Source of the DNA: an uncultured Gemmatimonadota bacterium
GTDB lineage: Bacteria > Gemmatimonadota > Gemmatimonadetes > Gemmatimonadales > Gemmatimonadaceae
NCBI GenBank assembly: GCA_902826615.1
Contig: CADEFN010000001.1
Coordinates: forward strand, 1,240,001-1,304,000
Length of the DNA: 64,000 nt
Reading direction: 5' to 3'
In this document: positions 6,969 to 19,640 of the stretch, piece after piece
Layout: every line of letters starts with the position of its first letter
Numbering within the stretch: position 1 is the first letter of the stretch
Program-made: the position numbers and the translations under genes
Notes under the pieces: generated by a model
What the model was told of the DNA's origin: nothing
What the model saw: the letters and a program-made list of their open reading frames with translations, nothing else
Databases searched by the model: none

Positions 6969-7780
6969 GTAAACAGCAGTCGAGAGAGGAGTGCAGCCAG
7001 ATGCTCGGGGGTTTCCTCCGGAAGGCAGAACCCCGAACCCGGAAGAACTTCCAAAGTAGCATGCGGCAGGGTGCGGACGAGCTGAAGTGCGTCTTCGTGA
7101 CTCGTGATCGCGTCGAGATCCCCCCATATGACAGTCGAGCGGGCCGTTACCCGAGTAAGATCGGGAACGCCCTCGCTTCGATCCCGTCCGAGTGCGAGCG
7201 CCTGGGCGCGAAAGACGCCGTAGCCGCCGTTGGTGTATGGGAGAAGAAACTGCTCAGCGCTGTGAAGACCCCGAGCCTCGTCGAGATAACAGCGCTTGAT
7301 GGACATGGCGACCAGTCGCGCACTCCAGTCGGTGGCAACGCCCGGAAGCGACAGCGTGCGCCATTCCAGGGTGCCTCCGATCGGGGAAGGCCAGTCGGAA
7401 GGGGACCCAGGCGAGATGAGCACCAGTTCGCTGACGGCCGCAGGCGACTGGGCGGCAAGGCAGAGAGCCACCGCTGCGCCATAGCCATGACCAACGACGC
7501 ACGCACGCGAAACACCGAGAGCCTGGAGCAGGTGTCCAATCCGCCGGCCATGTGCGGCTACCGAAAAGTCCGAGTCAGGGGGTGGATCGCTACGGCCGCA
7601 TCCAGCGAGATCCACTACGATCGCGCGTCGGCCCTGCGGCAGCATGGGTGTGAGCGCGCCCCACGTATGGGACGAACCCGGGAACCCGTGAAGGAGCACA
7701 ATCGGGTCTCCCTTCCCACGCGTCCCCGCAGCGTAGCAATACAGCCGCGTTCCTCCGACATCGATGAACTCGCCGCGCAC
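6965..7780 (-). CDS. alpha/beta-hydrolase-fold protein lacking catalytic Ser and His
   Basis: 271 aa with a clear alpha/beta-hydrolase fold: oxyanion-hole HGFPG (31-35), the strand VVDLAGCGRSD, a nucleophile-elbow position at 97-101 and the acid-strand IWGDLDAIT (about 218-225). The elbow reads GHGYG, with Gly99 where Ser or Asp is expected. The C-terminal position where the catalytic His normally sits reads PGSGFCLPEE, with Phe251 in place of His. The Gly codon is GGC, one base from AGC. The protein is therefore probably a non-catalytic fold or uses an unusual mechanism. It is the first gene of the operon with the TPR and glycine-zipper proteins. Confidence 0.85.
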   Translation of the reverse strand: MRGEFIDVGGTRLYCYAAGTRGKGDPIVLLHGFPGSSHTWGALTPMLPQGRRAIVVDLAGCGRSDPPPDSDFSVAAHGRRIGHLLQALGVSRACVVGHGYGAAVALCLAAQSPAAVSELVLISPGSPSDWPSPIGGTLEWRTLSLPGVATDWSARLVAMSIKRCYLDEARGLHSAEQFLLPYTNGGYGVFRAQALALGRDRSEGVPDLTRVTARSTVIWGDLDAITSHEDALQLVRTLPHATLEVLPGSGFCLPEETPEHLAALLSRLLFT

Positions 7781-7931
7781 ATGTCCTCCAAACTGGAACT
7801 GAACCTAGCAACTGCGCAGTACTAGCGGTGCCGCTCAGAATCGATATCGTTACGCCGCCAGAAACCCTCGGCGTAGCGGAAGCATGGTAAAGCTATGCTG
7901 GCAAACAGTTTAACCTGACTTTCCCGGCACG

Positions 7932-9083
7932 ATGCAGCTGCTCGATGATGATGGTGATCTTCCTCCGGCGCCTCCGGCTCCGCCGCCGCCACCACCACCT
8001 CCGCCGCCTCCTCCACAGGTAGACTTCCCTGGCGGCTGGCTGCTGGATAACGCGACATCATCAGTGCAGTACAGGATCATCAAGGAACTCCTCGATGGTT
8101 CTGAGACCCCGCCGAAGGCCAGCGCGCTCGCCTTCTCCAACGCCGAGGCGATTCGTCTGGCGGTTGTGCAAAGTGTCGACGGGATCTGGAACAACGCGAT
8201 GCTTGCCGTGCCTGACAACGGATCGCGCAAACCCGAAAAGAGTGTTGGCACCACCACGGCCGTCCATCGCCTCCTCGAACTCGGCTGGGACAAGGACGCC
8301 CCCCCGTTTCAGGCTGCGAGGCGCCCACTTTTCAGGCTACTGGCAGAGGACACCGATCCCGGTTTCCTGTACGAACTGGCGGCGAACGGGCGCGACAGTG
8401 AGACCGTCGCCTGGTCTCGCGGGCAGCTGCGCGGGGCGGCCGCTGCCGCTCTTGCGCATGCTGGCTACGAGCTCGACCCGCGTCTTCGCGGGGCGGCGCA
8501 GCGCCTGCTCGGGCGTGTCGACGAATACATCGCCTCACCGTTGCTCGACGACCCGTGGGTGAAGTTGGGGGGCACGCACGCACTCGCGCCCGACGCATTC
8601 CCGCCCACGCTCCACATCCTGATGATGCTGGCCTACATGCCGGCGTACCGCATTGAGCACGACGATCTCATTGATCGGCTGGCGCTCTACTTCACCCGCC
8701 CGCTTCCGCGTCATGCCCCGGCGCAAGCGCTCGGCGCGCGAGCCCTCCCAAGTCCGTATGTACTGCTGGGAGATCCGCTCAGCACCCGTACCGTCGCCGA
8801 CGGCGACATGTCCTTCACCCTCTATTGGCTGGAGCTGGTAGCTCGCCTTGGCCTGCTCAAGCGTCACGAGGGATGGGAACGCCTTTTCACACGCTTGCTC
8901 GACGACCGCGACCGCGACCTCGTCTGGCGGCCAGCCAAGACTCAGCTCAGTGAGTCTGGTCGGGATGTCACCTGGCCCTTCCGGGACCTGCAGGGGCGTG
9001 GTGAAGCCGGGCTCGAAGTCGAGGTCACCTTCCGTCTGGCTCTCATTGCTCGTTTACTGGGGTATACCGTCGAGTTCGTCTGA
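7932..9083 (+). CDS. hypothetical helical protein with N-terminal polyproline tract
   Basis: 383 aa from ATG MQLLDDDGDL. Residues about 11-28 are almost entirely Pro, including an unbroken run of a dozen, which would require EF-P for efficient translation. The rest looks mostly helical, with a repeated rhythm of Leu/Ala-rich segments (YRIIKELLDGSETPP, HRLLELGWDKDAPPFQAARR, LRGAAAAALAHAGYELDPR). This resembles the alpha-toroid architecture of prenyltransferase/terpene-cyclase-like or squalene-cyclase-like repeat proteins, but no DDTA or DXDD motif is present. I do not recognise a family. A strong hairpin follows 109 bp downstream. Monocistronic as far as can be seen. Confidence 0.75.
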   Translation: MQLLDDDGDLPPAPPAPPPPPPPPPPPPQVDFPGGWLLDNATSSVQYRIIKELLDGSETPPKASALAFSNAEAIRLAVVQSVDGIWNNAMLAVPDNGSRKPEKSVGTTTAVHRLLELGWDKDAPPFQAARRPLFRLLAEDTDPGFLYELAANGRDSETVAWSRGQLRGAAAAALAHAGYELDPRLRGAAQRLLGRVDEYIASPLLDDPWVKLGGTHALAPDAFPPTLHILMMLAYMPAYRIEHDDLIDRLALYFTRPLPRHAPAQALGARALPSPYVLLGDPLSTRTVADGDMSFTLYWLELVARLGLLKRHEGWERLFTRLLDDRDRDLVWRPAKTQLSESGRDVTWPFRDLQGRGEAGLEVEVTFRLALIARLLGYTVEFV

Positions 9084-9246: not shown

Positions 9247-10161
9247 GTGATCGCATCAGCCTTCCGGGGTCGTCTTCCTGTGGACCAGTGGTATCCCGCG
9301 CGCGAGCCCGGGCTCACGGCGCGTCTGCTGGATCTTCCTGGTGGGGAGGTGGCACGTGTGGTCGAGGGAGGACCGGCCGACGCCGACCCGGTGGTGTTCA
9401 TTCACGGGTGGGGGTGTTCGGCCTACTTCTTCAGGAAACTGCTTCCGGCCGTGCTGGCAACGGGGCGCCGGGTGATGGCAATGGACCTGCGGGGTCACGG
9501 GGCCTCGAGCAAACCGGGTGACCCGGCGTGTTACACCGCGGAGTCGATGCGCGACTTTGCCACTGCCGTGCTGGATGCGACCGCCATCTCCCGGGCGCAC
9601 ATCGTCGCCCATTCGTTAGGCGGTGGGATCACGCTTGATCTGGCCGCAATGCACCCCGGACGGGTGCAGAGCCTGACCCTGCTGGCGCCTGTTGGGCTGG
9701 CCCCGGTTCGCTTTGTAACACTCGCCCGTCTGGGGACCCCGCCGCTGGCGGCACCGCTGGTGCCCTATGCGGTACCACGCTGGAGTATTCCCCTGGTGCT
9801 CCGGGCCGTGTACGGCCAGGAGGGTGAACACGGCACACGCGACGTGGACGAGTACTGGGCCCCCACCGCCGATCCCGCCTTTGCCCTCGCGTTGCGTGCC
9901 CTCCTCCATCACTATCGCTTTGCTCCGCGCACCGACGCCGATCTGGCCCGCATTACGGCGCCGGTGCTGCTGCTCCTTGGTGGCCGCGACCTGCTTGTAC
10001 GGTCACGGGCGTCTCGCAGGCGCATGGACGGGCGCGCCGGTTGGGACACGCGACTGCTGGAGACGGCGGGGCATGTGCTGGCCGAGGAGGTACCGGCGGC
10101 GGTGCTGGAATCACTACTGCCGCATCTCGATGCTGCGAGCCGATCGGCCACTCCTGGTTGA
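9247..10161 (+). CDS. alpha/beta hydrolase with intact triad
   Basis: 304 aa, GTG start. Typical alpha/beta-hydrolase fold: oxyanion HGWG, the strand VMAMDLRGHGASSKP, nucleophile elbow AHSLGG with the catalytic Ser, acid GGRD and His in AGHVLAEE. It therefore retains everything lost by the homologue at 6965. The substrate cannot be predicted; the closest well-known types are esterases, epoxide hydrolases and lactonases of the hydrolase-1 family. No membrane segment or signal peptide. The DEAD-box gene starts 36 bp downstream on the same strand and could be co-transcribed. Confidence 0.88.
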   Translation: MIASAFRGRLPVDQWYPAREPGLTARLLDLPGGEVARVVEGGPADADPVVFIHGWGCSAYFFRKLLPAVLATGRRVMAMDLRGHGASSKPGDPACYTAESMRDFATAVLDATAISRAHIVAHSLGGGITLDLAAMHPGRVQSLTLLAPVGLAPVRFVTLARLGTPPLAAPLVPYAVPRWSIPLVLRAVYGQEGEHGTRDVDEYWAPTADPAFALALRALLHHYRFAPRTDADLARITAPVLLLLGGRDLLVRSRASRRRMDGRAGWDTRLLETAGHVLAEEVPAAVLESLLPHLDAASRSATPG

Positions 10162-14325: not shown

Positions 14326-17001
14326 GTGCTGAACGAAATTCGCGATCGCGCGCTACCCCCTGACCACGCCGCCTTCGTGGCGGCGGAGCCTCCCACCGGG
14401 CGCGTGATTGTCATCGCCCCCACGCGCGCAGCCTGTGAAACCATCGAGCTCGCGCTCGGACTCCAGGTGGACACGGTGCTCGAGCGCGAACATGGTGAGG
14501 AGATCCGGGCCCTCGCCCGTGGGGGGAAGGGCTTCGGGATAGTTGCCGGAACGGGCACCGGAAAGACCCTCGCCGTGCGGCCGATCGCCCAGGCCATCCT
14601 GCGGACCGACACGCTCAAGGTGGGCGTGGTCAACCGTGAGCGTGAGGCGACGCCCGAGACGCCGACGTGGAACGTGATCATCGTGACCACGGGCATCGCG
14701 CGGCGCTGGTTTCAGGATGGCGACATTCTGCCGCGCGACACCCTGATCATCGATGAAATCCACCAGACCTCGGCCGAGCTGGAGTTGTGTCTGGCGTTAG
14801 GCAAACGGGTGGGATGCCGGTACATCTGGCTTTCGGCCACCGTCGATCCGTCGTTTTATGCGCGGTACCTCAATGCCGCGGCCGTCATCCAGAGTTCGGC
14901 CTTCGATCCGGCGCGGGCGGCGGATGTGCGCGTGGTGCGCAAGGATCCCGCCAATTTTCTCGACGACCGCTTTCTGCAGGGTGTGAGCAAGCAGAAGCGT
15001 GGCGTGGGGATGTTTCTTCCCACCCGTGCCAGCGTGGAACAGGTGTCGAGTGCAGTGGGCGACCGGTTTCAGCGGATCACGTCGGCGTTTTACCATGGGG
15101 GCGAGCCGATCCGGGTAATTCGTCCCTTTCTGGAAGAAGGGGCCCCCAAGCCGTTTTTCCTGGCCATGACCGCGGCGGGGCAGAGCGCACTGAACATCCG
15201 TGGGCTCGATACGGTGGTGATCGACGACACGCGCTTTGCCAACGTGGTGGAACGTGGCAAGAACGTGCTCACGCGGCTGCATCTTGGCACAAACGAGATC
15301 CTGCAGATGGCGGGGCGTGTGCACGGGCGCGTGGAAGGCGGGCGGGTGTTCATTCTCAGTGACCGCGACATCGAGTTTTCGAACCTGCGACCCACGGCGC
15401 CCGAGTTCCAGCTGGCCGGGGACTGTGAGCGGGTGGCGCTCACCTGCGCCGGGCTTGGCGTGCGTGCCGATGAACTCGATCTTCCGGTGGCCCTCGATCA
15501 CGGCGCGTATCGGCGGGCATTGCAGCATCTCGAGGCTCGTGGCGTGGTGGAGCAGGGCCGGCTGTCGCGATATGGCCGCATGGTCGAGGCCCTTCCTGTC
15601 GAGCGACCATGGGCCGAGCTCATCGCGCATGCCGACACCAGGCTGCTTCCCTACCTGGCGGTGATGGCCAGCGTCGAGAGTCTGCACCGCATGACACGTG
15701 ACCAGCGTGACCTGTCGGGACTGATTGTGGCTGGAAGCGATCACCTCACTGCCTACAACGTGTATGCCGACGCCTACACACGGGCAGGGTACCTGGGTGA
15801 GGTGTATGGACTCCCGCGTCAGCTCTTTGATGAAGGGGCCATCGGGTTATGGGCGGAACGGCGTGGTGTGCTGGTGAAGGCTATCGAGGATACCGCGCTG
15901 GCCATGGCGAGTGTCTGTCGCGCGGTAGGCTTTGAGCTGCCGCAGCGGATGCCACTGGTGGATGACGCCATCCGTCGCGCCTTTTGCGACCTGCTCGCGC
16001 GGATCATGCCGTTTGACCTTGTCATCGACGAGGAAACGGCCGACGGGCAGGAAGCCAGGGTGTCACGCAGTAGTGTGTGCGGCTCGTGGGGCGCGGTGGC
16101 CGGTTCGTTGCGCTATTTCGCCGACCGGTTTGGTGTGCCCCGTGCGTCGGTGGAAGGGACGCAGGTACCAAACGATCTCGTGCGCCAGTATGCCGTGCGT
16201 GGCGAGCCCGAAGTGGTGTACGACGGGGATCAGCGCAAGGATGCCTTGCTCCGACGCACACGGGTGACGTACTTCGGCTTCGAGCTGGAACGTGACGAAG
16301 CGTTTCTCGACGACTTCGGCGACGAGGCGGCGTCATGTCAGCGGGCCCTCGCCGAGGCGATGGCGCGTGAGGAAGCTCGGCATCCGGCGGTGCGTGCCAA
16401 TCAGCGTGGCATTCTCGAAGCCCGCGAACTCTACAGACGATCGGGCGGGCGCACCCCGCGCCTGGGCTTCGCCGAGTTGCGTGATGCCTATCGAGCCCTG
16501 CTGGCCGGTGTGGGGTCGATGCGGGAGTATCGGCTGGCCCAGCTGCGGCTCGATTTTTCTGGCCTGGTCGATCCAGCGGAACGCACGCGCTTGTTTGCGC
16601 TCCCCGATCACGTCGAGATTCGAGGGCACCCTGTCGGTATCGACTACGACGTCGAGGATGGTGCCGCCGGCGAGGCGCCGCAGGCGATTGCCCGGCTGGT
16701 GCTGCCGGAAAAGATGGCGCGAACCCTGGTCAGCGAAGAGGTACCGGCCCTCGACCGCGCCGTGCGTTTTGTGGTGCACCGCGGCCAGCGTGGCAGTGTG
16801 CGTGCCGAAACACTCGATGAACTGCAGGAACTGCTGGACCGGCCGTGGACGCCGCACGAGCCCAGCCGTCGTCAGGAGCGCGAAGACGATGCCCGCCGCA
16901 AGCGCCGTGATCGCGACACCCGTTCTCGCGGTGAAGTCGACCGCCATCGCAAATCACGTGATGGTGCGCGAGTGAACCCGCGCCGACGCGGGAAACGTTA
17001 G
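14326..17001 (+). CDS. large DEAH-type superfamily-2 helicase, orphan
   Basis: 891 aa, GTG start. N-terminal helicase core: Walker A AGTGTGKT (residues 75-81), DEIH box in LIIDEIHQTS (about 141-149), WLSATVDP (motif III) and a second RecA domain with ILQMAGRVHGRVEGG (motif VI, Gln/Arg-rich). The DEIH box and SAT place it near the HrpA/NS3 group of SF2 helicases. The region after about residue 360 is helical and not recognisable to me as the HrpA winged-helix/OB part. The last 45 residues are extremely basic (RRKRRDRDTRSR and similar), suggesting nucleic-acid binding. The stop overlaps the stop of the convergent GNAT gene within a CGTTAGGC motif. Substrate (RNA or DNA) unknown. Confidence 0.85.
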   Translation: MLNEIRDRALPPDHAAFVAAEPPTGRVIVIAPTRAACETIELALGLQVDTVLEREHGEEIRALARGGKGFGIVAGTGTGKTLAVRPIAQAILRTDTLKVGVVNREREATPETPTWNVIIVTTGIARRWFQDGDILPRDTLIIDEIHQTSAELELCLALGKRVGCRYIWLSATVDPSFYARYLNAAAVIQSSAFDPARAADVRVVRKDPANFLDDRFLQGVSKQKRGVGMFLPTRASVEQVSSAVGDRFQRITSAFYHGGEPIRVIRPFLEEGAPKPFFLAMTAAGQSALNIRGLDTVVIDDTRFANVVERGKNVLTRLHLGTNEILQMAGRVHGRVEGGRVFILSDRDIEFSNLRPTAPEFQLAGDCERVALTCAGLGVRADELDLPVALDHGAYRRALQHLEARGVVEQGRLSRYGRMVEALPVERPWAELIAHADTRLLPYLAVMASVESLHRMTRDQRDLSGLIVAGSDHLTAYNVYADAYTRAGYLGEVYGLPRQLFDEGAIGLWAERRGVLVKAIEDTALAMASVCRAVGFELPQRMPLVDDAIRRAFCDLLARIMPFDLVIDEETADGQEARVSRSSVCGSWGAVAGSLRYFADRFGVPRASVEGTQVPNDLVRQYAVRGEPEVVYDGDQRKDALLRRTRVTYFGFELERDEAFLDDFGDEAASCQRALAEAMAREEARHPAVRANQRGILEARELYRRSGGRTPRLGFAELRDAYRALLAGVGSMREYRLAQLRLDFSGLVDPAERTRLFALPDHVEIRGHPVGIDYDVEDGAAGEAPQAIARLVLPEKMARTLVSEEVPALDRAVRFVVHRGQRGSVRAETLDELQELLDRPWTPHEPSRRQEREDDARRKRRDRDTRSRGEVDRHRKSRDGARVNPRRRGKR

Positions 17002-17525
17002 GCGCCGTCCGTCCCGGGCAGGGTGACAGTGTACTGATCACGCGCATAGGGTTCGAAGCCGCGGGCGAGATAGTTGGGCAGCGCCGAGGGGGCGTCGAGG
17101 GTGCAGGTGTGCAGCCAGACACGTGTGGCGCCCCAGGCAAAGGCCTCCCGCGCCGCCTGCTCCAGGAGCCAGCGGCCAAGTCCCTTGCCGAAGGCGTGCG
17201 CCATGAGGCCGAAGTAGGCGATTTCCACTGAGCCGTCACGGTGGCGCAGGAGTTCGAAGTAGCCGCCACGCTCGCCCGCCGTTCGTAGCTCGAACACCCG
17301 CACCGAATCGCGACCGAGGTACTCGGCGAAGGTGTCGTCGCTCCAACCCAGCCTGTCGTGCCAGTGGTACGCGGCTCCTACCTGGTGGTAGAGCTCACGG
17401 GCCGTGGCGACGGGGCAGGGTCGGATCTCAACTACCTCGGCTGCTATGGCGGGCACCTCTCCGACCCGAAGGCGCGACAGGTCGGGCAAGTGGAGATACG
17501 TGCGTTCCACGGTCAGTTGAGGCAT
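16998..17525 (-). CDS. GNAT-family N-acetyltransferase
   Basis: 175 aa from ATG MPQLTVERTYLHL. GNAT fold with the acetyl-CoA loop AHAFGKGLGRWLLEQA (Q/R-x-x-G-x-G/A type) followed by TRVWLHTCTLDAPSALPNYL and GFEPY, the usual beta-4 to beta-6 segment. Substrate unknown (protein, small amine or antibiotic). The longer open frame to 17651 enters the AT-rich tetR promoter region and is not supported. It is convergent with the helicase, with stops overlapping by 4 bp. Confidence 0.88.
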   Translation of the reverse strand: MPQLTVERTYLHLPDLSRLRVGEVPAIAAEVVEIRPCPVATARELYHQVGAAYHWHDRLGWSDDTFAEYLGRDSVRVFELRTAGERGGYFELLRHRDGSVEIAYFGLMAHAFGKGLGRWLLEQAAREAFAWGATRVWLHTCTLDAPSALPNYLARGFEPYARDQYTVTLPGTDGA

Positions 17526-17691
17526 GCGCGAAAGGTAAAGCGGGGCAAAGCGTGGGCTCCATTCGATCCGGGGGGCGTATGACCGTGGGGTCCTATCGCG
17601 GCGTGAGAGCGTAAGTCGTTGCTGTGTAACGCATTGCGACAAAGTATCCAAAAAACGATCACCAAATAAGGGGAAAAAGCTGTTGTGCTTC

Positions 17692-17705
17692 GGACCGTGC
17701 GGTCC
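17692..17705. promoter_or_regulatory. palindrome upstream of tetR, candidate operator
   Basis: GGACCG-TG-CGGTCC is a perfect 14-bp inverted repeat ending 12 nt before the GTG of the TetR gene, next to an AT-rich stretch (17645-17690) that could contain the promoter. TetR proteins commonly bind such palindromes in their own promoters. Autoregulation is inference. Confidence 0.5.
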
Positions 17706-17717
17706 TAAGCTTCAGGC

Positions 17718-18314
17718 GTGACCAATACCAAAACGAGAATCATCGATGCCGCTGCGGCGCTGATCGCCGAGCGAGGATTCAAGCGAACCTCGGTCGACGA
17801 CGTCATTGATCGCGCCCAGCTCAGTGGCAAGAGCCACTTCTATCACTACTTCCGGTCGAAGGACGAACTCGGCCTCGAGGTGTTGAGCCGCCAGTTCGAG
17901 CGTTTCGCCGAACGTGGGCTCGCCATCCTTCGTGAGCCCATGATTGAGCCGTTGGAGAGGCTCAACCTGTTCATCGATTCGCTCGTCGCACTGCAAACCG
18001 AGCGCGGTTTCCGCATCGGGTCGCCATTCGGGAACCTGGCCTCGGAAATGGCCGACATGCACGAAGGGTTCCGTGAACGGCTTGCCACGGTGTTTGATCG
18101 TTGGGCTGGTCAGTTGCAGTCGCTGCTTTGGGAAGCGCGGCCTTCGCTCAACGAGGACGTGGACACGGCGCGGCTTTCGCGCTTCATCATCGCCACGCTC
18201 GAAGGCGCCCTGATGATGTCCAAGGTGAATCGTGACGCCGAGATGCTGCGCGCCATCACCAGCGATCTGAAGCGCTTTGTGGGCACCCATGCTCGCGAAG
18301 GGGTGTCCGCATGA
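17718..18314 (+). CDS. TetR-family transcriptional regulator
   Basis: 198 aa, GTG start. N-terminal HTH: TKTRIIDAAAALIAERGFKR, TSVDDVIDRAQLSGKSHFYHYF, RSKDELGLEVL, all canonical TetR positions. The helical C-terminal ligand domain contains GSPFGNLASEMADMHEGFRE, resembling the TetR_C domains of AcrR/YcdC-like regulators. The stop overlaps the ATG of the ECF sigma gene (ATGA), so the two are translationally coupled. A 14-bp palindrome lies just upstream. The inducing ligand cannot be inferred. Confidence 0.92.
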   Translation: MTNTKTRIIDAAAALIAERGFKRTSVDDVIDRAQLSGKSHFYHYFRSKDELGLEVLSRQFERFAERGLAILREPMIEPLERLNLFIDSLVALQTERGFRIGSPFGNLASEMADMHEGFRERLATVFDRWAGQLQSLLWEARPSLNEDVDTARLSRFIIATLEGALMMSKVNRDAEMLRAITSDLKRFVGTHAREGVSA

Positions 18315-18967
18315 CGTCTGTTGCCGAACTGCTCGAGATCGGCACGATTGACGTATCGGCACTTGACCTCGAGGGGACCATGGTCGGGCCGGGCCTGCGG
18401 GATGTAGTGGCGCGGGCGGGGTTTGAGTCGGACGCCCAGCGGCACCTGCCGTCGCTGTACAGCTTTGCGCTCAAACTTGCCCGGTGTCGTGATGACGCCG
18501 AGGACCTGGTGTCGGACACCTACCTGCGTGCCATCGAGCGCTGGGAGCAGTTCCGTCCCGGCACCAACATGCGGGCGTGGTTGTTCACGATTCTTTATCA
18601 CATCTTCGTGAGCCGCAAGCGCCGCATTGACGCGCGCGAAGTGGTCTCGACCGATGACCCGGACATGCCATTCGCCTTTGAGGTTGTGGGCGAGGCAGAT
18701 CCCGAAGGCGCCTACTACGACTCCTATATCGACGAGGAGATCGTCTCAGCCATCGAGGCGCTGCCGGGAGAGTATCGCGCGGCGGTCCTCATGAGTGACG
18801 TACACGGCATGCGCTACGCAGAAATAGCCGAAAAGCTTGGTGTGCCGGAGGGGACGGTGAAATCACGCCTCTTCCGTGGTCGGCGGATGTTGCAGCGCCG
18901 TCTGAAGGGCTACGCCGTGGACATGGGGTACGTCCGCCAGTCGGCGACGGCTGGCGTTCAGGAGTAG
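18311..18967 (+). CDS. ECF-type RNA polymerase sigma factor
   Basis: 218 aa. Sigma region 2: LPSLYSFALKLARCRDDAED, LVSDTYLRAIERW, then NMRAWLFTILYHIFVSRKRR. Region 4: EALPGEYRAAVLMSDVHGM, RYAEIAEKLGVPEGTVKSRL, FRGRRMLQRRL. An N-terminal extension of about 40 residues precedes region 2. No anti-sigma factor follows; the next gene is on the other strand one base after the stop. Overlap with tetR by 4 bp suggests the TetR repressor takes over the control usually given by an anti-sigma factor. Target genes unknown. Confidence 0.92.
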   Translation: MTSVAELLEIGTIDVSALDLEGTMVGPGLRDVVARAGFESDAQRHLPSLYSFALKLARCRDDAEDLVSDTYLRAIERWEQFRPGTNMRAWLFTILYHIFVSRKRRIDAREVVSTDDPDMPFAFEVVGEADPEGAYYDSYIDEEIVSAIEALPGEYRAAVLMSDVHGMRYAEIAEKLGVPEGTVKSRLFRGRRMLQRRLKGYAVDMGYVRQSATAGVQE

Positions 18968-18968
18968 G

Positions 18969-19640
18969 TCAGGCGCTGGCGGCTCGGCCGTCCGTATGCC
19001 GAGCCCGAAACCGCGCCGCCTTGGCGCGGTTGCCGCATGTGGCCATTTCACACCAGCGCCGTCGGCCATTGCGTGTGTGGTCGAGAAACACCCGTGAGCA
19101 TCTGGCATCACCGCAGCGACGCACGCGCACCAGGTCTCCACTGATCAGGGAGTCGGCCGCCGACTCCACCACGGGAATGATCAGGGCGGCAAAGGCATCA
19201 CCTACCGGCACAAAACTCCGTGCAAAGGAGCCGTCGGCGCGTGGTTCGACCCTGCGTGTGCCCGCTGACCGTCCCAATACCCGATTGATCTCGCTCAGCG
19301 CATCCTGGCGGGCCTTCTCGGAGTTCAGTCCCCGTTCTGCCAAGGCGCGCAGGGCCGCACGCGTGCGCCGGGCATCCACCAGCGAGGCGGCGGCACCCGC
19401 GGGCTGTTGCTGGGCCCGTCGCCGCATTCCGCTGCTGCGTTCGTCGTCGAGTATGCCGGCTTCCTCGAGGAAACGCACCAGTGATTCGAAATCGCGGAGC
19501 AGGTCGAAGCGGGCGCCATGGCGCATGTCGTCGGTGTTGACGAAGTCGAGCCACAAGCGTTCGCCCACGTGAGAGAACCGCGCCCCACTGGAGGGCGTAA
19601 GCCGGACTACTTCATCGGAAGACCGTGCGAGCTGACCCAT
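18969..19640 (-). CDS. CGNR zinc-finger / ABATE-domain regulator
   Basis: 223 aa. The N-terminal region (LWLDFVNTDD..., DLLRDFESLVRFLEEAGIL) is typical of the ABATE putative stress-response domain. The C-terminal CGNR zinc finger is complete: RRCGDARCSRVFLDHTRNG followed by RRRWCEMATCGNRAKAARFR, with four Cys ligands. Such proteins are thought to bind DNA. It is convergent with the sigma gene, with stops 1 bp apart. Transcribed alone. The physiological signal is unknown. Confidence 0.9.
   Translation of the reverse strand: MGQLARSSDEVVRLTPSSGARFSHVGERLWLDFVNTDDMRHGARFDLLRDFESLVRFLEEAGILDDERSSGMRRRAQQQPAGAAASLVDARRTRAALRALAERGLNSEKARQDALSEINRVLGRSAGTRRVEPRADGSFARSFVPVGDAFAALIIPVVESAADSLISGDLVRVRRCGDARCSRVFLDHTRNGRRRWCEMATCGNRAKAARFRARHTDGRAASA

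Follow-up and report, generated by a model that had tools for sequence, protein, structure and literature searches.

Most ECF sigma factors are held under the control of an anti-sigma factor. The window analyzed here, a 64,000-nucleotide stretch of the genome of an uncultured Gemmatimonadaceae bacterium, harbors an ECF sigma gene that directly follows a tetR gene. A sequence-only reading of this DNA had suggested that the TetR repressor might set the level of the sigma factor directly. The locus raises the question of whether this sigma factor is governed by its abundance, through a repressor encoded in the same operon, or by an anti-sigma factor in the more common manner.

The gene pair and its surroundings

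The open reading frames of tetR and the sigma gene share 4 bp (ATGA) in the window, exactly as the sequence-only reading had described it (Table 1). That reading had also denied the presence of an anti-sigma gene beside the pair, and indeed the adjoining genes encode, according to their Pfam matches, a GNAT acetyltransferase and a CGNR zinc-finger protein. The GNAT gene adjoins tetR in some relatives only. Further genes were considered as members of the operon and rejected. The coiled-coil-like ORF found between the sigma gene and the CGNR gene at 25 loci (e.g. positions 7415–8083 of locus L121) lies on the opposite strand, and a short-chain-dehydrogenase-like ORF is confined to one tetR-less genome, with no counterpart at other loci.

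Table 1. Features of the tetR–sigma locus, in window positions
Feature	Position	Strand	Remarks
GNAT acetyltransferase, divergent neighbour	16998..17525	-	ORF 16998-17651; conserved part starts near ATG at 17525
Second putative operator Op2, TATGACCGTGGGGTCCTA	17578..17595	.	PWM score 16.1; 112 bp 5′ of Op1
Third palindromic element, consensus TAAN4TTGN5CAAN4TTA	17612..17636	.	10/12 positions match, counted by hand
Putative -35 box TTGTGC	17683..17688	+	TTG at fixed offset from operator in 68/72 loci
Predicted TetR operator Op1, GGACCG-TG-CGGTCC	17692..17705	.	Conserved; fills 17-bp promoter spacer
Putative -10 box TAAGCT	17706..17711	+	Fits TANNNT, found at the same position in 65/72 loci
tetR, TetR-family repressor with TetR_C_13 (LmrA/YxaF/AcuR-NemR-like) sensor	17718-18314	+	GTG start; Pfam/NCBIfam
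ECF sigma gene, SigR/SigH-like, regions 2 and 4 only, 3′ partner of tetR	18311-18967	+	ATG start
ABATE/CGNR zinc-finger regulator, convergent neighbour	18969..19640	-	Pfam

The TetR protein

The tetR gene encodes a protein of 198 amino acids that matches TetR_N (PF00440, 53.5 bits, cut-off 24) and TetR_C_13 (PF16925, 67.5 bits, cut-off 27). Its nearest NCBIfam model is AcuR (NF051457), with a score of 103.4 bits that lies below the cut-off of 247. When the AlphaFold model of the protein (pLDDT 87, pTM 0.79) was compared to the PDB, the best fold matches were TetR proteins, e.g. 3qbm, 3bru and NemR (4yze). Judged from this TetR fold alone, the activity of the protein may be controlled by a ligand.

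According to the accessible part of PMC13178969, AltR and NemR repress their own synthesis via an inverted repeat located in the promoter of their gene. The window's TetR resembles NemR, AltR and AcuR in its TetR_C_13 type of sensor domain and in this layout, predicted here, of self-repression, with NemR being among its closest folds. As far as that part of the source describes them, the targets of these regulators are reductase or tolerance genes and a key cysteine serves for sensing, whereas the window's TetR is free of cysteine and is encoded before a sigma gene; the AltR box given there also differs from the palindrome in the window. Since the window's TetR contains no cysteine, and hence no redox-active one in its sensor domain, a thiol switch of the NemR/AltR kind is ruled out for this protein. 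In the SPFG region, a cysteine is present in few of 27 orthologs.

The sigma factor and the search for an anti-sigma factor

The 3′ partner of tetR matches Sigma70_r2 (PF04542, 54.9 bits) and Sigma70_r4_2 (PF08281, 73.4 bits), both above their cut-offs, as well as TIGR02937 (93.6 bits, cut-off 42.9), and contains no other sigma domains, which identifies it as an ECF sigma factor. Among the NCBIfam models it comes nearest to SigH_actino (TIGR02947; 129.2 bits, below the cut-off of 251.55), and its best natural match in the PDB is SigH of M. tuberculosis. The TetR-linked sigma factors, together with tetR-less and extra copies, form a single clade with a support of 100/100. The closest sigma factors of the sister family are 43–51% identical to that of the window, and where the next gene was read, its product is a short ZAS protein that carries the motif HX3CX2C, as in SigR/RsrA. 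The window's own genome contains such a SigR/RsrA pair (positions 1186458–1187262 of contig C1, 53 kb before the window start), whose sigma factor is 40% identical to the window's; a gene that appears metal-ATPase-like from its translation lies 3′ of that pair. By these closest relatives, the sister-family proteins and the paralogue, the window's sigma factor is likened to the SigR/RsrA (ECF12-like) system, from which it differs in that no ZAS anti-sigma factor is linked to it and TetR holds that place in the operon.

A profile for RsrA-like anti-sigma factors gave no match with E ≤ 10 in 76 TetR loci, many of which are cut by contig ends, or between positions 10000 and 30000 of the window; the same profile recovered three control loci. 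Accordingly, no ZAS anti-sigma factor with HX3CX2C was found linked to the sigma gene, with anti-sigma types unlike RsrA being excluded by the Pfam matches of the neighbouring genes only. The statement of the sequence-only reading that the sigma factor comes without an anti-sigma factor thus stands locally and for RsrA-like proteins, but it does not extend to the whole genome, since the SigR/RsrA pair encoded elsewhere might act in trans.

Such regulation in trans would mean that tetR and the sigma gene do share an operon, but that the activity of the sigma factor is gated by an anti-sigma factor, most likely the RsrA of the SigR paralogue, with TetR adding a second, transcriptional layer. The SigR/SigH-like character of the sigma factor, the RsrA-like proteins encoded after its nearest sister-family relatives where the next gene was read, and the presence of a SigR/RsrA pair in the window's own genome are all in line with this explanation. 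At merely 40% identity, however, the sigma factor is distant from its SigR paralogue, and the lack of a linked RsrA-like gene throughout the 76 loci would be unusual for an anti-sigma-controlled ECF sigma factor. We thus regard gating by RsrA in trans as unlikely and favor a SigR-like sigma factor that appears to have no linked anti-sigma factor, in which TetR would occupy the regulatory seat and which is probably controlled by its abundance, not by an anti-sigma factor. As to the direction of change, an ancestral anti-sigma factor may have been replaced by TetR; the loci of the sister family and of the window's family are not syntenic in the stretches compared.

Conservation of the gene pair

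In a sample of 99 genomes, 59 of which belong to the window's family (Gemmatimonadaceae, whose members live in soil and fresh water), TetR orthologs were identified in 28 genomes, all from this family, with identities of about 52% and above, after which the next matches fall to at most 34%. A sigma ortholog is located directly 3′ of tetR and on the same strand in every one of these 28 genomes. Among the 59 family genomes, tetR is present in 28 and the sigma gene (at least 61% identity) in 30, while tetR without the sigma gene occurs in none; both genes are absent from 29, i.e. about half. A wider scan with a TetR alignment against one genome per species (84,980 species) returned 80 loci, with the reservation that it leaned on two conserved peptides and weaker relatives elsewhere may escape it. 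Seventy-six of these loci come from Gemmatimonadota records, one of which carries a different label in its title, and encode a TetR of at least 52% identity; the sigma gene follows 3′ in 76 of 76 cases. Three distant TetRs without a sigma gene and one cut fragment make up the remaining four. The TetRs of named relatives are 79–89% identical to that of the window. A search for the pair in other genomes, which the sequence-only reading had put forward as a check, hence speaks clearly for it.

The translational coupling assumed by the same reading fared differently. The 4-bp overlap is real in the window, but a start codon at the overlap position is present at only 12 of the 28 loci; at most others, translation of the sigma gene could plausibly begin only 3′ of the tetR stop, with gaps of up to about 130 nt. 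Coupling is therefore not a general property of the pair and was ruled out as a conserved feature, and coupling via the overlap is conceivable at no more than these 12 loci.

Two of the sigma-bearing family genomes (G016 and G043) carry the sigma gene at the same locus and between the same neighbours, with tetR absent and no palindrome in the sigma promoter. As their sigma factors, which occupy a long branch (0.44), nest within the TetR-linked clade with supports of 97/86 and 95/98, tetR must have been lost there, together with the operator. These two genomes, as well as the 29 family genomes without both genes, would fit a scenario in which TetR is a passenger, i.e. an autoregulated repressor whose gene precedes by chance a sigma gene that is either silent or needed constitutively. 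This is difficult to reconcile with the presence of the sigma gene 3′ of tetR at all loci of both samples across a divergence that takes tetR identity down to 51%, and with the lack of a separate operator ahead of the sigma gene, as a search between tetR and the sigma gene at the 28 loci with the operator PWM described below revealed no site. We consider a passenger role of TetR very improbable and retain a functional link between both genes as the preferred reading.

After the loss of tetR, the sigma genes of G016 and G043 (loci L092 and L093) possess a sigma70-like promoter and a Shine-Dalgarno-like sequence of their own. Besides a normal tetR–sigma pair, a further genome (G037) carries an extra, tetR-less sigma copy (locus L094, contig C43) that forms a long branch and shares 64% identity with the sigma factor of the window.

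The operator and the promoter of tetR

The palindrome GGACCG-TG-CGGTCC, which had been noticed just upstream of tetR, is found at that place, and a search for it elsewhere in the 5.9-Mb genome showed that the exact 14-mer has a single occurrence. A PWM was built from the sites 5′ of tetR in the 28 loci, and with it a palindrome of this type (Op1) was detected at the same promoter position at 27 of these 28 loci and at 72 of 74 named loci. The latter are loci with intact upstream DNA, several of which overlap with the 28. Since the PWM was trained on the sites of the 28 loci, the evidence lies in the position of the site, not in its score. The conservation of the palindrome upstream of tetR orthologues, on which the sequence-only reading had made its idea depend, is thus apparent. 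Among the 28 loci, L023 (genome G030) has no operator 5′ of tetR and Op1 of L020 is degenerate; Op1 is missing from the expected place at two of the 74 named loci. G030 does have an operator-like palindrome on a different contig, close to an ORF that resembles a protein kinase.

A TTG is positioned 7 bases ahead of the 18-base site at 68 of 72 loci, and TANNNT follows immediately 3′ of the palindrome at 65 of 72. This geometry is suggestive of a sigma70-type promoter with a 17-bp spacer that is occupied by the operator, so that the operator overlaps the tetR promoter as in autorepressed TetR operons. Because the palindrome is situated within the promoter spacer, a repressor sitting there would stand in the way of RNA polymerase. 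The start codon of tetR lies 5–10 nt past the -10 box at 72 of 72 loci (6 nt in the window), and a Shine-Dalgarno-like 4-mer precedes it at one of 72, for which reason we predict a leaderless tetR mRNA.

We further considered a wide TetR regulon and rejected it. Of the 58 genomes searched for the strict operator pattern GGACYNNNNRGTCCTA, 15 bear tetR, and 11 of these carry the pattern in the promoter of tetR. Away from tetR, 5 sites were counted in these 15 genomes versus 13 in the 43 genomes without tetR; extra sites are therefore no more common where tetR is present, which gives no indication that TetR acts on further genes.

A second operator and a third palindrome

With respect to the region upstream of tetR, the sequence-only reading was right about the one palindrome that it named, but it overlooked a second putative operator (Op2) and a third palindrome (Table 1). 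Sites of the Op2 type were absent from the training set of the PWM. A second site above threshold was found 5′ of Op1 at 18 of the 28 loci, nine of them with a spacing of 122–125 bp; that of L024, at -184, is weak. Among the 72 named loci with Op1, 50 possess a second site and 22 have none above threshold. The spacing is 122–127 bp at 39 of the 50, namely at 25 of 30 loci with an adjacent GNAT gene and at 14 of 20 without, and the other spacings are 57, 79, 92, 100, 101, 102, 119, 120, 137 and 184 bp. Sites scoring >6 at positions -128 to -120 occur at 53% of 62 similarity-filtered loci versus 1.2% of equal windows elsewhere.

The second operator might serve another promoter, in that TetR would also repress the divergent GNAT gene or an upstream transcript. 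Of the 40 loci at which a divergent GNAT gene lies nearby, 30 indeed possess a second site, sometimes as close as 14–60 bp to the GNAT start. Against this stands that the spacing to Op1 is conserved, whereas the GNAT start may lie anywhere between 14 and >180 bp away, and that the second-site loci without an adjacent GNAT gene largely keep the 122–127 bp as well. Op2 was thus rejected as a plain GNAT operator, and we hold any such service to another promoter to be improbable.

A tentative refinement of the dose-switch model is that TetR, bound at two operators ~125 bp or ~12 helical turns apart, loops the DNA or binds cooperatively, with the palindrome in the middle as a helper or antagonist site. 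The preferred spacing irrespective of the GNAT gene, the marked enrichment at -128 to -120 and a middle palindrome whose offset is fixed (38 of 62 loci) would agree with this role of Op2, while the single-site loci, the 112-bp spacing in the window and the variants of 57–184 bp, which are not all whole helical turns, would not. TetR-family proteins are usually dimers, and bridging two operators would therefore require tetramers. A precedent is found in the gal operon, where GalR forms a loop with HU between two operators ~114 bp apart that enclose a site for a third protein. The ~125-bp two-operator layout with a middle site resembles it, but GalR belongs to the LacI family and looping at the tetR–sigma locus is suggested by spacing only.

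The third palindrome lies between both operators and begins 52–53 bases before Op1 at most loci; at least 9 of its 12 positions match at -51 to -54 at 38 of 62 loci (summed by hand), whereas in the window it sits further 5′. The exact consensus occurs at 62 places in 58 genomes versus 4 for a reversed control, and the element is widespread in Gemmatimonadota. Several of its sites lie ~50–110 bp 5′ of gyrA-, gyrB-, parA/parB-, flagellar- and sigma-like genes (20 stretches, gene names from translations). The genes near ten of the sites and in 20 further stretches pointed to no binder. A global regulator that has yet to be described may bind this palindrome.

A model for the regulation of the sigma factor

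The proposal that the repressor sets the sigma level directly is supported by the invariable gene pairing (28 of 28 genomes, 76 of 76 loci) and by the palindrome in the promoter spacer, and we consider it probable that tetR and the sigma gene constitute an autoregulated operon acting as a dedicated sigma-dose switch. In this model, both genes would be transcribed as one operon, with the TetR operator forming the 17-bp spacer of their sigma70-type promoter. A ligand-free TetR dimer on Op1 would block RNA polymerase and both proteins would be scarce. Binding of a small molecule to the TetR_C_13 sensor domain would release TetR, the operon would be transcribed, and the free sigma factor would then switch on its regulon. 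Once the ligand is gone, newly made TetR would close the operon again. DNA binding, repression, release by a ligand and sigma activity are expectations derived from the protein families and the promoter layout.

Control of an ECF sigma level by a ligand-responsive repressor has a parallel in the iron ECF sigma factors PvdS and OrbS, which are repressed by Fur. There, the repressor is the global Fur, whereas the window's TetR would be dedicated to its sigma factor and co-transcribed with it. A closer likeness exists to the ECF203 sigma factors of Streptomyces, which in the accessible part of PMC8999054 are described as "possibly regulated by TetR repressors" that are kept in their neighbourhood. 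As depicted there, both cases combine an ECF sigma factor without a linked anti-sigma factor, a conserved adjoining TetR gene, which the tetR–sigma loci exhibit without exception, and proposed control at the transcriptional level; they differ in phylum, and the likeness is one of gene neighbourhood. For ECF203, the same part of PMC8999054 describes neither operators nor a promoter geometry. Beyond this proposal, the literature searched, both on TetR with ECF sigma factors and on Gemmatimonas with sigma factors and TetR, contains no described TetR–ECF operon with its operators. While a repressor-controlled ECF sigma factor had thus already been proposed, what is added here is the promoter architecture at the operator level, which is unexpectedly precise.

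A more far-reaching scenario would be that a SigR-type sigma factor swapped its anti-sigma factor for TetR at the root of a Gemmatimonadaceae clade, passing from sequestration to dosage, that TetR loops two operators ~12 helical turns apart around the palindrome of a global Gemmatimonadota regulator, and that the tetR–sigma mRNA is leaderless. Taken as a whole, we regard this combination as doubtful. As the operator, the promoter geometry and the gene pairing are conserved across the family, the design is directly testable. If it holds true, it would represent a compact one-input sigma switch that would be useful for circuit design, and a natural case of a sigma factor whose control has shifted from its activity to its dosage.
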